From Synergistaceae bacterium (GTDB lineage Bacteria > Synergistota > Synergistia > Synergistales > Synergistaceae), in the NCBI GenBank assembly GCA_031269245.1, contig JAISZL010000093.1:1-34248 (forward strand): DNA of 34,248 nucleotides, given 5' to 3'. Shown here in pieces: positions 1,087-31,913 of the stretch. Made by a program: the position numbers and the translations under genes. Numbering within the stretch: the first letter of the stretch is position 1; the number at the start of each line of letters is the position of its first letter. The notes below the pieces were generated by a model, which worked only from the letters and a program-made list of their open reading frames with translations, was not told where the DNA came from and ran no database searches.

Positions 1087-4000
1087 CTATCTGCCCTTGC
1101 GCCGCCGCACGGCTACCGCCGCCGCCGAAGCGATCAGCGCCGCCGCCGCGCCCGTGTCGCAGCCGCCGCCTGAGCCGCCGTCGCCGTCGGATATCGGCTC
1201 GAACTCAGCGGAGACCTGGAAAGCGCCGGTGACGTTCTCATACGTGTAAATGTAGTAAGTGCCGTCGGAACTTATATCGACGTCATCCAGATCGACCTCG
1301 CCGCCGCCGCCGATGCTGAGGGACTTGAGCCTGTAGCCGATTTTGGGAGTGATTTTAATCGCCGCGTCGCTCCCCGCGAATATTGCGGGCAGAACCCGGC
1401 CAAAGATCTCTATTGTTCCATTTTCCACGTTGGGGTCAACAGTAGCGGTAATGACCTGCAAAGAATTACCGCTATATTTGAATTCGCCGACTGACCTGAG
1501 CCCAGACAGCCCGATTACCTCGTCGAGTGACGGGCAATCGCTGATATCAAGCTCATCCAAGCTCTCGACGCCGGTGATGTCCAGAGTTTCGAGCGACGGG
1601 CAACCAAACGCGTTTATCTCGTCCATAGCCACGGGACCGGATATCTTAACCGACGTGAGGTTGGGATTACCTCCAACTTGCACCGACGAAAGATTCGCCA
1701 GTCCGGTAAAATCGAGTTCGCTCAAATTGGCGCCGGAGCCGTTAAACACCTCGAGGCCGCTCAACGTGCTAAGCCCCGAGAGCGTGACGAGCGCGGGATT
1801 ACCTCCGACTAACAGCTCACTCAACTCCAATAGCCCCGTTACATCAAGAGTCGTGAGGTTATTCCCAGAGCAATCTATCTGAGTCAGCGCGGTCAGCTCT
1901 GAGGCGTCGAGCTTTGTCAAGTTCTTGTTGGGTATGTTAAGCTCGACGACTCTCAAATCGTCCGCGTCTCCGCCCCAGGTGACTCCGTTGGCTATCCATT
2001 CAGGATCCGTGGTGTTATAGGGATACTCGAAGTTTATAGCGGCGAACACCGTGCTGCCAGCGTCATCGGCCTTGATAGCTTTCAGCGCGGCAAGGTCATC
2101 CGCATTATACGCACGAGTTGCATCCTCCATTCCAAGAAGCTTCGTGCGGTAGGGATCATAGAACGTCAAGTCATTGACGTATATAGATGCCTCGCCGCTC
2201 CAAACGGGCACAGCCGCACTGTCATCCAGGAAAGTAGAATCATAGTAGCGGCTGTACGATATATCCTTCGAGTTAACTTCGCCGAAACCCGCTGTGTTGC
2301 CGCTGAATGTGGAGTTGCCCGATAAGGCTGCGACAACACTGGAGTTTAAGGCTCTTACGCCTCCCCCTCCGACCGTCAAGCCGGCGCCATGATATATGTC
2401 CACCGCGCCGCCCGCGTATGTGGCCTTGTTATCAGTGAACACATTGTTATTGCCGCTAATTGTCAGCGAGCCAGAGCCCTTCATCCCTATAGCTCCGCCC
2501 TGGACAGCTTCGTTGCCGTCGAACGTGCTGCCGCCAGTTATCGAGACATTGCCGTTCGTTGAATTAATGGCTCCTCCCGTGCCATTCGGCGCTCTGTTCC
2601 TGCGGAACACGCTGTTGGTGACGGTAAGCTTGGGTAGAACACTCGAACCGTGGTTATTGACGTATATCGCGCCGCCGCCGCCGTTTATGTTGCCGCCGCC
2701 GCCGGCCAAGCAATCGGTGAAGGTCACGTTGTTGATGGTCAGATCGGCGCTGCCCTCGACAAAGACCGCCCCGCCGAGCTTCGCGTTATAAGCGCCTCCG
2801 CTGATCTTGAGGTTTGTAATGCTCGCTTTCGCGTTAGCATTCTCCCCAACGTCAAAGACAGGGTATCCGTTGCCGTCAATCGTGTTGCCGTTGCCGAATA
2901 TCGCGACGTTCTTGTCGATAAACACCGTCGCGCTGGTGTTGACATCCGTCTTGGACGTGGCGCTGGGGTTGTTGGCGTGTTTCGCGTACGCGAAGCTGGA
3001 GGTGATGACCACTATATCGCCGCTATTCGCGCTGCCCGCGGTTAAAGCAACACCCCTGCCGCCAGTCGCGCTATCGTAATCGTAATAGCCCAGCGTCTCC
3101 TTAAGCGTGTTGTGGTTCGCCACAGTTCTCACACCCTGATAAGGGGTAAGTATGCTGCGATTGTCATCAGCAAAGTATGTTGGGGACACGTTTGTTGCAC
3201 CCACGGTGAGTCTGCCCAATTTAGGAGTCAAATTATTTCCTGTCTGTATGATGTCGGTGAACGTCAATGGATAATTTATGCTCACTACGTAATTGTCAGA
3301 TGACGTTCCATCAATCGCATCTGAATTGCCCGAAAAATTTACAGAGGTATTTACTTCGGCAACTATTGGAGTTGCGGCATAGGTGTTGCCGCCAACACCA
3401 AAGATGTGGATGGCCCCGCCTGCTCCATTTATCACACTGTTGCCTGTGAAATCGGAGTTGCCGGTCACACTGAGGGTGCCCCCGGTTCTGAGAGTTATAG
3501 CGCCTCCCTGTAACGTTGCGCTGTTCTGTATGAAATCAGAGCTTACAATCGTTATCGGGATATTCGCATAGATCGCTCCCCCTCGGGTGATAGCGTTGTT
3601 ACCTTGGAAAGTAGTGTTATCCACGGAGATAACGCCATTGTTCTGCACATACAACGCGCCGCCGCCGCCATTGTTGCCCTCCGCGACGCTCTTATTATTG
3701 ATGAAGGCGCAATCCTGAACTTCAAGAGTGCCGCTGCGCACACTGACGCCGCCGCCCCATTCATAAATATCATCACCATGGTGACCTTTGGTCTGTCCAC
3801 CTTCCGCCCCAGTTTGAAAATCTCGCAATGTCAAATTGCGCAACACAATATGACTGCCTGCGGCAGAGTTGAAGCGCAAACCCGTGTTAGGATCACTAAC
3901 GTTTGCAGGTTTGATTGTTTTTCCGCTTCCGTAAAGAGTGAACTTTGTAACTGCTCGAGTCCTGCCATCAGTGCTAATCGTTTCATAGGTTGCACTTGAT

Positions 4001-4254
4001 ACCGCATCATTAATATCAACGTCAAATGAAATATACGCCATAGGAACTGAACTTGCGGCGCCAAAATAATCGCAACTTCTGATAGCCGTATCCAACTCAC
4101 TCCAGGTATCTACGACATACGGATCAGAGTCTGTGCCATTACCGCTTATTGATGCCCATCCGGGGAGGGGGGGGGTAACTATAACCGCCGCCATCAGGAA
4201 TGAGAGGAACACAATTAACTTGTAGTAACTTTTACCGTTCACCGACAGTAACAT
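1087..4254 (-). CDS. Exported surface protein with Pmp-like beta-helix and leucine-rich repeats, Synergist-CTERM-like tail
   Basis: This 1055-residue protein starts at ATG 4252-4254 with AGGTG about nine bases upstream. Residues about 12-34 form a signal peptide (basic start, KLIVFLSFLMAAVIV, ending near GWA). Two blocks (about 140-280 and 480-660) carry repeated GGA(I/L) and F-x-x-N motifs, as in chlamydial Pmp and other right-handed beta-helix proteins. Residues about 775-930 are leucine-rich repeats (pattern L-x-x-L-D-x-S/T-x-x-x-x-L). The end is acidic/glycine-rich, then GGGCDTGAA, an alanine-rich hydrophobic stretch and RRRKGR, which matches the layout of the Synergist-CTERM sorting signal. 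It is probably exported and anchored at the cell surface; adhesion or ligand binding is likely but unproven. A run of nine C residues (4167-4175) sits in the signal-peptide coding region and could allow slippage. The base composition is visibly less GC-rich than the core genes nearby. Confidence 0.88.
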   Translation of the reverse strand: MLLSVNGKSYYKLIVFLSFLMAAVIVTPPLPGWASISGNGTDSDPYVVDTWSELDTAIRSCDYFGAASSVPMAYISFDVDINDAVSSATYETISTDGRTRAVTKFTLYGSGKTIKPANVSDPNTGLRFNSAAGSHIVLRNLTLRDFQTGAEGGQTKGHHGDDIYEWGGGVSVRSGTLEVQDCAFINNKSVAEGNNGGGGALYVQNNGVISVDNTTFQGNNAITRGGAIYANIPITIVSSDFIQNSATLQGGAITLRTGGTLSVTGNSDFTGNSVINGAGGAIHIFGVGGNTYAATPIVAEVNTSVNFSGNSDAIDGTSSDNYVVSINYPLTFTDIIQTGNNLTPKLGRLTVGATNVSPTYFADDNRSILTPYQGVRTVANHNTLKETLGYYDYDSATGGRGVALTAGSANSGDIVVITSSFAYAKHANNPSATSKTDVNTSATVFIDKNVAIFGNGNTIDGNGYPVFDVGENANAKASITNLKISGGAYNAKLGGAVFVEGSADLTINNVTFTDCLAGGGGNINGGGGAIYVNNHGSSVLPKLTVTNSVFRRNRAPNGTGGAINSTNGNVSITGGSTFDGNEAVQGGAIGMKGSGSLTISGNNNVFTDNKATYAGGAVDIYHGAGLTVGGGGVRALNSSVVAALSGNSTFSGNTAGFGEVNSKDISYSRYYDSTFLDDSAAVPVWSGEASIYVNDLTFYDPYRTKLLGMEDATRAYNADDLAALKAIKADDAGSTVFAAINFEYPYNTTDPEWIANGVTWGGDADDLRVVELNIPNKNLTKLDASELTALTQIDCSGNNLTTLDVTGLLELSELLVGGNPALVTLSGLSTLSGLEVFNGSGANLSELDFTGLANLSSVQVGGNPNLTSVKISGPVAMDEINAFGCPSLETLDITGVESLDELDISDCPSLDEVIGLSGLRSVGEFKYSGNSLQVITATVDPNVENGTIEIFGRVLPAIFAGSDAAIKITPKIGYRLKSLSIGGGGEVDLDDVDISSDGTYYIYTYENVTGAFQVSAEFEPISDGDGGSGGGCDTGAAAALIASAAAVAVRRRKGR

Positions 4255-29724: not shown

Positions 29725-29963
29725 CAAAAGCAAGCGCCGCCGGCATAATAATTCTTTTTTTTGCGTGACCGCCGCGATTTTAGATATTTTCCCTGAACCG
29801 CCTCTCCTAGTGGTGCAATATTTCAAATAAGATTATATACTTATTGATGGTTACATAAATATTAATTTGTTGGAAGGCTGGGGTGGTTCCTTTCACTTCG
29901 CGTCCCTGGCTTTAAGTTGACGTCAAGCCTCCGGCAAGGTCTTTAAGGGAGGGAATGTGTGCT

Positions 29964-31913
29964 ATGGATTTTCACTTCAGGCTAGGCATCGCCGGCCGCG
30001 CGGGACACGGGAAAACGTCGCTCAGGACGGCGCTCTGCGCGTCGGGCGTCAAGTCGTCTGGATCCAGACGCAAGGGCTCCTCCGGGGATTTCGACCATAC
30101 CCCTCTCGTCCTGCCGAGCGGGATGGAGGTCGATGCCGCGGACCTGCCGTCCATGGAGAGCTCCGTCTCCTGGATGGCAGCCGGGGCCTCCTGCTTGGAT
30201 GCCGCGGTGTTCGTGATATCGTGTGACGAGGAGGCGTCTCCGAACGCGGCGGAATATATAAATGTGCTCGGTTTGCTGGGGGTGGAGTCCGGGATAGTGG
30301 TCCTGACCAAGGCCGATCTCGTCGGCCGGGATGCCCTGGCATCGGCGAGGCGCGACGCGGAGGCGCTGGTCAAGGGGACCTTCTTGGAGGGCGCTCCGAT
30401 CGTGCCGGTCTCCGTCGTTGTCAAGAAGGGCCTACCCGAGTTGCTGAAGGCGCTCGACGGTCTTGTCGGGCAGTCGAGGCCGCGCGATCGCTCGGGGGCG
30501 TTCTTCATGCCCATCGACAAGGTGTCGAGCGTGAGGGTTGGCGCTGTGGTGGCGGGCGTCCCATACAGCGGGACCGTGAGGGAGGGCGACTACCTGGAGG
30601 TGATGCCGGCGGGCAGGCTGTCTCGGACGTCCTCCATCTGGGCGAGAGGGAAACGTGTCGGCTCGTCGCGCGCCGGGGAGAGGCTGGAGATCGGGCTCGA
30701 CCTCGTCACCTCGGAGCAGATTAGGAGGGGGGATGTCCTCTGCGAGAAGGGGCGCTTCGCTCAGACGGAGTGCCTGGAGGCGGCCCTTGGCATTCTGCCG
30801 TCCGCCGCGGAGCCCATAGCCCACATGCAGAGGGTTCGCCTTCTCGTGGGGAGTTTTGACGTGGTGGCGAGGGTGTCCGTCCTGTCGGACGTCGCGCGAG
30901 GCGTGGAGCCAGGGAGGAACCGGGTGGTTCAGTTGCTGCCGGAGTCCAGGATAGCGGCTCGGGTGGGCGAGCGATTTGTCGTCCTGTCCGGCGCGCCGCC
31001 CAGGGCGGCGGGCGGCGGGCGCATCCTGATACCGTGCGCCATGCGACCGCACAGCGGGGAGGAGAGGGCTGTTCATGAGGACGTCCTGAACAACCTCGCC
31101 GCGAACTGGAGCGATCAGGCCATGCTGTCGGCAATGGTGCGCGAGAGGGAGTGCATCGACGTGGAGGAGCTGCATCATCTCTCTCAGATCGAGCGGACGG
31201 AGTTCTATCGGCTGCTCTCGCGCCTGAAGGACGACGATGGGCCGTCCGGCGTGGTGCCGCTCGGCGCGTCCGAGGGGATCATTCTGTCGAGGAGCGCGGG
31301 GGCCCGCATCGCCCAGTCCGTGGCGTCCAGCCTCGGCGCTTTCCACGAGGCGCGCCCGGAGCTCGCCGGAGCGGATATCGACGACCTCAGGTCCAACGTC
31401 TTCGGCGACGGCGGATCTTCGTCACCGGAGTCGAAGGTGTTCGGCGATTTTCTCGAGGTCATGCTCTCGCTGGGCGAGATAGCCCGGACGATGGCGGGCG
31501 GCGGGGTGAGGTATCGCCTGCCCGATTTCGAACCGAGGTGCGATGGGGCGTTCGCCGAACTGGTCGCCAGGCTGCGCGCCGTGATGGAGGATTCCGGCTG
31601 TGAGCTGGCGGAGACGGTGACGCTGGCCTCCGCGCTGGGGGCAAAACCCGTGGACGTCACGCGCGCGCTGGGCTACCTGAGGGAAAATGACGGCGTAGAG
31701 GTGATCGGCGACGGGTTGCTGCTCCCGAGGGACGTCGCGGAGAGGGCTCTTGAGGCAATCACGTCCATGCGCGGGGAGATCTCGGCGTCCGCGCTCATGG
31801 GCGGCTTAGGCATCAGCCGAAGGGCGAGCGCGGCGATCCTCGCTTTCTTCGACTCGAAGGGCGTCACGCGGCTCTCCGGGAACAAAAGAGTCTTGCGGAA
31901 GATGCGCGGGTGA
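29964..31913 (+). CDS. selB: SelB-like selenocysteine-specific elongation factor with degenerate GTPase domain
   Basis: SelB carries Sec-tRNA to UGA codons marked by a SECIS hairpin. The 649-residue protein keeps the order: GTPase domain (1-180), EF-Tu-like beta-barrels 2 and 3 (about 185-370, with FFMPIDKVSSVRVGAVVAGVPYSGTV), then winged-helix domains (about 385-649). P-loop GRAGHGKT (11-18) and TKAD (115-118) are present. However, the switch I segment normally ending GITI is replaced by KGSSGDFDHT, and the DxPGHE motif reads DLPSME (60-65), so the glycine and catalytic histidine are gone. ATG 29964 is preferred to ATG 29955, which lies one base after the GGGAGGG site. No selA or tRNA-Sec is in the window. 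It could be a SelB paralogue with another role. Confidence 0.8.
   Translation: MDFHFRLGIAGRAGHGKTSLRTALCASGVKSSGSRRKGSSGDFDHTPLVLPSGMEVDAADLPSMESSVSWMAAGASCLDAAVFVISCDEEASPNAAEYINVLGLLGVESGIVVLTKADLVGRDALASARRDAEALVKGTFLEGAPIVPVSVVVKKGLPELLKALDGLVGQSRPRDRSGAFFMPIDKVSSVRVGAVVAGVPYSGTVREGDYLEVMPAGRLSRTSSIWARGKRVGSSRAGERLEIGLDLVTSEQIRRGDVLCEKGRFAQTECLEAALGILPSAAEPIAHMQRVRLLVGSFDVVARVSVLSDVARGVEPGRNRVVQLLPESRIAARVGERFVVLSGAPPRAAGGGRILIPCAMRPHSGEERAVHEDVLNNLAANWSDQAMLSAMVRERECIDVEELHHLSQIERTEFYRLLSRLKDDDGPSGVVPLGASEGIILSRSAGARIAQSVASSLGAFHEARPELAGADIDDLRSNVFGDGGSSSPESKVFGDFLEVMLSLGEIARTMAGGGVRYRLPDFEPRCDGAFAELVARLRAVMEDSGCELAETVTLASALGAKPVDVTRALGYLRENDGVEVIGDGLLLPRDVAERALEAITSMRGEISASALMGGLGISRRASAAILAFFDSKGVTRLSGNKRVLRKMRG

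Follow-up and report, generated by a model that had tools for sequence, protein, structure and literature searches.

SelB has been treated as a signature gene of bacterial selenocysteine (Sec) decoding (PMC1794560, PMC1780047). The window analyzed here, a stretch of 34,248 nucleotides of contig JAISZL010000093.1 from a Synergistaceae bacterium (assembly GCA_031269245.1), encodes a SelB homolog, referred to as pSelB, in which the switch motifs of the GTPase domain are replaced. The question raised by this locus is whether the protein is still a Sec factor, a decaying relic or a protein with another role. The reading favored here, at a probability of roughly 0.6, is that of a SelB-derived pseudo-GTPase without a switch that would bind RNA or aminoacyl-tRNA and would no longer act as a Sec factor.

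Identification of pSelB as a full-length SelB homolog

The gene was delimited as follows:

29955-31913, + strand: open reading frame containing the pSelB reading frame
29964..31913, + strand: pSelB, candidate SelB-homologous pseudo-GTPase of 649 amino acids (open reading frame, TIGR00475 match, dN/dS of about 0.18 against the ortholog)

ATG 29964 is a likelier start codon than ATG 29955, since the Shine-Dalgarno-like sequence AAGGGAGG is too near the latter (1-2 nt, compared with about 10 nt for ATG 29964) and since the homology of the ortholog found in congener G104 (L004; 59% identical to pSelB) starts at the same Met. The match to TIGR00475 (selB) had an E-value of 1.2e-41 and a score of 143.2 bits, which is under the equivalog cut-off of 242.25. 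Among domain models, EF-Tu domain 2 (PF03144, 2.8e-08) and SelB-wing_3 (PF09107, 2.3e-06) scored over cut-off, and SelB beta-barrel (PF25461, 6.7e-05) and SelB-wing_2 (PF09106) scored below it. The best solved relative was E. coli SelB 5lzb (aligned with 5lzb_z). An hhalign comparison with canonical Synergistota SelBs aligned 642 columns at a probability of 100%, indicating that pSelB is homologous to SelB from end to end. The AlphaFold model, built from two input sequences, was unusable (mean pLDDT 33.6, pTM 0.26), and the case for intact barrel folding therefore rests on sequence profiles.

Loss of the switch motifs from the G domain

The following features were located in the G domain:

29964..30476, + strand: G domain, residues 1-171, switch motifs gone (comparison of near-invariant columns)
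29994-30017, + strand: P-loop GRAGHGKT (canonical GHIDHGKT), GxxxxGKT kept, H12 and D14 lost
30045-30107, + strand: former switch I stretch GVKSSGSRRKGSSGDFDHTPL (alignment with Synergistota SelBs, hhalign)
30141-30158, + strand: former G3/switch II, DLPSME instead of DVPGHE (alignment, hhalign)
30306-30317, + strand: G4 TKAD (TKSD in the ortholog), TKxD kept (alignment)

The original prediction had proposed that the P-loop and TKAD remain, that DxPGHE reads DLPSME and that switch I gave way to a Gly/Ser-rich stretch. The two retained motifs were confirmed at the positions listed, and both replacements were borne out by the alignment and echoed in the ortholog. The switch I motif RG[IM]TI[ED]LGF corresponds in pSelB to the Ser/Gly-rich, basic sequence SSGSRRKGSSGDF; the two orthologs read KGSSG and RVSAV, with Ser or Ala at T40, so that the Mg-binding Thr is absent. 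This former switch I drifts freely, with 6 of 21 residues identical between the orthologs. At switch II, DLP is kept, and Ser replaces the glycine (G63S) and Met the catalytic histidine (H64M). The segment now forms part of a conserved motif, DxxDLPS[MF]ESSxxWMxxG, with 13 of 18 residues identical between the orthologs. The alignment with Synergistota SelBs settled whether DLPSME might align elsewhere: it lines up with DVPGHE and can be taken as its equivalent, because the neighboring blocks are anchored on either side and because of the 642-column hhalign alignment at 100%. Over the 50 near-invariant columns of the G domain, 21 were kept, 20 were lost in both orthologs and 9 in one.

In the human factor eEFSec, UGA read-through was found to require Thr48 (switch I) as well as His96 and Asp92 (DxxGH), and the phosphates are contacted by Gly95 of switch II (PMC5059743). 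Of these four residues, pSelB keeps the equivalent of the Asp and has replacements for those of Thr48, Gly95 and His96. Given the need for such residues in eEFSec (PMC5059743), pSelB should no longer switch between GTP and GDP forms or hydrolyze GTP. Nucleotide binding may survive via the P-loop and TKxD, and there may be an unusual mechanism of hydrolysis.

Distribution in the Synergistota

Canonical G motifs were present in the approximately 50 Synergistota SelBs that were read, the exceptions being pSelB and its one ortholog; the others have GH[IV]DHGKT, RG[IMV]TI[ED]LGF and DVPGH. The ortholog shows the same motif losses, with GQTGHGKT, KHRVSAVDFEF and DLPSFE, and was also the sole match in a pattern scan of genome contigs (L056 = JAISRE010000009.1, Synergistaceae bacterium isolate Kf353_bin45). 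Since a protein of 59% identity has the same replacements and other Synergistota SelBs are canonical, the loss of the switch motifs cannot be ascribed to a sequencing error or to a single aberrant gene. Among the 188 Synergistota genomes searched, pSelB members were found only in the window genome and in G104, corresponding to 2 of the 11 members of the genus; the remaining genomes had far lower-scoring matches, at the level of canonical SelB, or no SelB. Both genomes with pSelB are draft assemblies, with a completeness of 96.7% for the window genome and 86% for G104. No report of a bacterial SelB without switch motifs was found in the open-access papers searched.

A divergent SelB of another kind was observed in some members of genus g17, which are order-level relatives. 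It forms a separate clade, is 27-29% identical to pSelB and has the canonical DVPGHE (L066, G008:C2:296000-298600; L065, G134:C9; L064, G147:C58). It is additional to the main SelB in G008 and also in G134, where SelB genes number three.

Selection, shift of constraint and origin

pSelB and its ortholog were aligned over 649 codons with no gap or stop, at a dS of 1.81 and a dN of 0.32 (omega of about 0.18). For the adjoining genes, the same comparison yielded dN/dS values of 0.242/2.02 (IspE) and 0.164/1.43 (SMC). These data indicate that pSelB is maintained by purifying selection and is not decaying, in line with the earlier view that simple decay does not explain the gene.

As a baseline for the distribution of constraint, 76 canonical SelB pairs of about equal overall identity were used; these are not mutually independent, and the values given here therefore compare ranges without amounting to a formal test. 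The G domain was 0.52 identical in the pSelB pair and 0.75 on average in the canonical pairs (minimum 0.70), and the ratio of G-domain to whole-protein identity was 0.88 compared with 1.20-1.37. Winged helices 1-2, in contrast, were 0.56 identical in the pSelB pair and 0.37 on average in the canonical pairs (maximum 0.49). Canonical pairs are most alike in the G domain and least alike in winged helices 1-2, whereas in the pSelB pair identity peaks in domain 2 (0.75) and is lowest in the G domain. Constraint has shifted away from the G domain and toward domain 2 and winged helices 1-2.

A maximum-likelihood tree placed pSelB with the canonical SelBs of G152 (L043, same genus) and G162 (L086, same family), two genomes with Sec genes, at a support of 100/100; its exact sister within this group was weakly supported (87/45). 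Long-branch effects were checked: without L043, and before L086 was added, pSelB had no settled place, and with L086 the support was 100/100. This grouping with canonical Synergistaceae SelBs took in no archaeal rows. Descent of pSelB from a bacterial SelB is strongly suggested by the sequences, the gene being either the old selB, moved beside smc, or a duplicate. The pSelB stem measures 1.65 changes per site and the tips 0.35 and 0.45. A long stem with ordinary tips fits neofunctionalization, that is, fast change after the loss of a role followed by renewed constraint.

Domain 2, the barrels and the winged helices

The remainder of the protein is composed of the following features:

30477..30749, + strand: domain 2 barrel, residues 172-262 (PF03144, 2.8e-08)
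30513..30521, + strand: I-D185-K186, Sec-pocket site (aligned with Asp180-Arg181 of E. coli SelB, 5lzb_z)
30681-30683, + strand: R240, equivalent of E. coli Arg236, kept (alignment)
30750..31034, + strand: domain 3 barrel, residues 263-357 (PF25461, 6.7e-05, below cut-off; hhalign)
31035..31520, + strand: winged helices 1-2, residues 358-519 (56% identical between orthologs)
31521..31910, + strand: winged helices 3-4, residues 520-649, the SECIS-binding end in SelB (PF09107 over cut-off)

Domain 2 is the part of pSelB most conserved between the orthologs (75%), and 21 of 23 residues are identical in the stretch that bears the pocket. Both orthologs keep the equivalent of Asp180 in the Sec pocket and have Lys in place of Arg181. 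Four residues that are near-invariant in domain 2 of SelB, T197, T199, R223 and H228, are all replaced. In winged helices 3-4, SR[KR], T[RK] and [KR]R are kept and are carried by wing 4. The barrels and winged helices had been described as intact, which holds at the level of sequence in view of the end-to-end homology, with SelB-wing_3 and EF-Tu domain 2 matched over cut-off and SelB beta-barrel and SelB-wing_2 below it. An exception is the Sec pocket, which is altered by the change of Arg181 to Lys.

Absence of a selenocysteine system

In the window genome and in G104, selA was not found, neither selD nor tRNA-Sec was detected over cut-off, and grdA, for the glycine-reductase selenoprotein GrdA, was absent. 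A second, canonical selB was sought in the window genome and none was found. Several weaker candidates were rejected: the selD matches in G000 and G104 were below cut-off and were attributed to relatives with an AIRS domain, a window-genome match to the tRNA-Sec model (45 bits) corresponds to tRNA-Ser(UGA), and the next homolog in the same genome (C78) reads as CysN-like, with DTPGHE. In the congener G152, selA, selB and selD are consecutive and adjoin tRNA-Sec, the whole forming a single cluster of about 7 kb, and a UGA-containing grdA is located on another contig. pSelB is not part of a sel operon. The searches indicate that the Sec system has been lost from both genomes that possess pSelB. 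A departure from Sec decoding, one of the two options originally put forward, agrees with these results, and it is very probable, judging from the sequences, that pSelB is a pseudo-GTPase that has left this process.

A full selD over cut-off, with no in-frame UGA, was observed in other genomes without selA over cut-off. Two of these belong to the same genus (G141:C83:21779-22687 and G155:C174:1893-2798) and three to the same family (G139, G161 and G163). Such orphan SelD proteins suggest a use of selenium other than for Sec.

Gene neighborhood

The order RNaseG-SMC-pSelB-Veg-IspE is common to both pSelB genomes, which also share an upstream feature:

29725..29963, + strand: intergenic region before pSelB, AT-rich block (pairwise alignment with the ortholog)

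The block GTGCAATAT...ATATACTTATTGA...TACATAAATA is strongly conserved between the window (29725-29963) and L051:4567-4792, and is probably pSelB's own promoter or regulatory site. Congeners were examined for traces of pSelB in the interval from SMC to Veg, and none were found; a permease is present there in G110 and other genes elsewhere.

The gene 3' of smc varies across nearly all genus members examined and may encode a permease, sugar-type transport functions, an iron-type ABC transporter or another protein (loci compared: L061, G152:C250; L060, G151; L059, G078; L058, G110). The site appears to be a spot prone to insertion or rearrangement. At the other end of the window, positions 1087-4254 of the - strand contain an open reading frame of 1055 amino acids whose N terminus resembles a signal sequence and which may encode a surface protein.

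Relation to known systems

pSelB is homologous to bacterial SelB (TIGR00475; the G152 and G162 proteins) throughout domains 1-3 and the winged helices, and has GxxxxGKT and TKxD in common with it. It differs by the loss of the switch I motif and of DxxGH, by Lys in place of Arg181, by its sub-equivalog score and by the lack of selA, selD, tRNA-Sec and a sel operon. CysN is a working GTPase, and the CysN-like protein of the window genome has DTPGHE where pSelB has DLPSME. CysN/NodQ is a relative of translational GTPases with functions outside translation (PMC1780047).

Archaeal aSelBL, which has disrupted G2 and G3 motifs and whose hosts do not decode Sec (PMC3037878), is the nearest precedent for pSelB. 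In the aSelBL protein MM1309, the switch regions form domain-domain contacts, and the protein was shown to bind and protect Cys-tRNA-Cys (PMC4329189). Like these proteins, pSelB is derived from SelB, has disrupted G2 and G3 motifs, has lost the His, occurs without Sec decoding and partly keeps the charges of the Sec pocket. However, aSelBL has been reported from archaea only and has no C-terminal extension, whereas pSelB is bacterial and keeps the winged helices; it apparently arose apart from aSelBL, from a bacterial SelB. Another parallel is Tsr1 (PMC4895721), which has the architecture of a translational GTPase without its active-site residues and is kept for a non-catalytic role. Tsr1 is, in contrast, a eukaryotic ribosome-assembly factor of another lineage that has also lost the GTP-binding residues, whereas pSelB keeps the P-loop and TKxD.

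Proposed role and alternative explanations

It is proposed that a Synergistaceae ancestor had a SelB whose role ended when the lineage lost selenocysteine (selA, selD, tRNA-Sec and GrdA), and that this SelB was kept and remodeled into a pseudo-GTPase, changing in a burst along the stem branch and then coming under ordinary purifying selection. The G domain would now be a structural piece that perhaps holds nucleotide and does not switch, and the former switch II might make new inter-domain contacts, by analogy with MM1309. RNA would be bound by the winged helices and by domain 2, whose aminoacyl pocket is retained in part (Asp185, Lys186 and Arg240). The bound RNA would most likely be an aminoacyl-tRNA, an mRNA hairpin or both, with no GTP clock involved and with domains 1-3 as a locked body. 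The protein could serve as a guardian or regulator of tRNA or RNA instead of as a canonical elongation factor. The chance that pSelB binds RNA or tRNA without switching is judged to be even or slightly better, and confidence in any particular RNA partner is low. Somewhat below even odds are given to the full scenario, in which a bacterial SelB, after the loss of Sec, was neofunctionalized into a GTP-independent RNA- or aminoacyl-tRNA-binding factor in parallel to aSelBL, kept the SECIS-binding winged helices and may control specific mRNAs via hairpins unrelated to selenium.

That pSelB is a pseudogene, left without a function by the loss of the Sec system and now drifting toward decay, is highly improbable. 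The missing Sec system, the drift of switch I and the retention of the gene in so few members of the genus would agree with this, but the gene is of full length, without indels or stops even though synonymous sites are near saturation, winged helices 1-2 and domain 2 are constrained at least as in functional SelBs, the upstream block is conserved, and the GC3 of 0.848 is like that of the neighboring SMC (0.860). A comparably small chance is accorded to the other option of the original prediction, a nucleotide-insensitive Sec-tRNA carrier in bacteria that still decode Sec, with the Sec operon in an assembly gap. At the completeness of these drafts a single gap could hide a cluster such as that of G152; however, an independent absence in both genomes would be needed (a rough chance of 0.03 x 0.14 = 0.005), and grdA, which lies on a separate contig in G152, is also missing. 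Moreover, the equivalents of eEFSec Thr48 and His96, needed for UGA read-through (PMC5059743), are lost, and Lys stands at the pocket position of His230, where other bacterial SelBs have Arg. This option found no support because no tRNA-Sec was detected; on present evidence, neither genome would be able to make Sec-tRNA.

Two further possibilities are narrower forms of the favored reading. pSelB may be a switch-less guardian or carrier of a canonical aminoacyl-tRNA (e.g., Cys), convergent with aSelBL, and its winged helices may now serve to contact the ribosome or RNA. The kept equivalents of Asp180 and Arg236, the positive charge preserved by the change of Arg181 to Lys, the near-identity of the pocket-bearing stretch and the binding of Cys-tRNA-Cys by MM1309 (PMC4329189) argue for it, but the replacement of T197, T199, R223 and H228 does not, and in EF-Tu the switch regions also touch the tRNA acceptor, so that tRNA binding may be gone in pSelB; this form is considered tentative and, by itself, unlikely. 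Slightly more doubtful is a regulator that binds mRNA hairpins, in which tRNA binding was lost, the SECIS-binding winged helices are the working part and domains 1-3 act as a scaffold. It would account for the constraint on winged helices 1-2, which exceeds that in canonical SelBs, for the residues kept in wing 4 and for the SelB-wing_3 match, but the most conserved part of pSelB is domain 2 and not the winged helices.

Implications

A switch-less pseudo-GTPase derived from SelB, the reading preferred here, bears on genome annotation. As a SelB-type protein is present in these genomes without the Sec trait, annotation by SelB alone would wrongly call the use of Sec. The canonical SelBs of a congener and a family member and their switch-less relative form a before-and-after set on how a translational GTPase loses its clock. 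pSelB also bears on the role of such domains without a GTP clock, a question that was raised, and not settled, for archaeal aSelBL. In two related Synergistaceae bacteria, machinery of the genetic code appears to have been put to new use.
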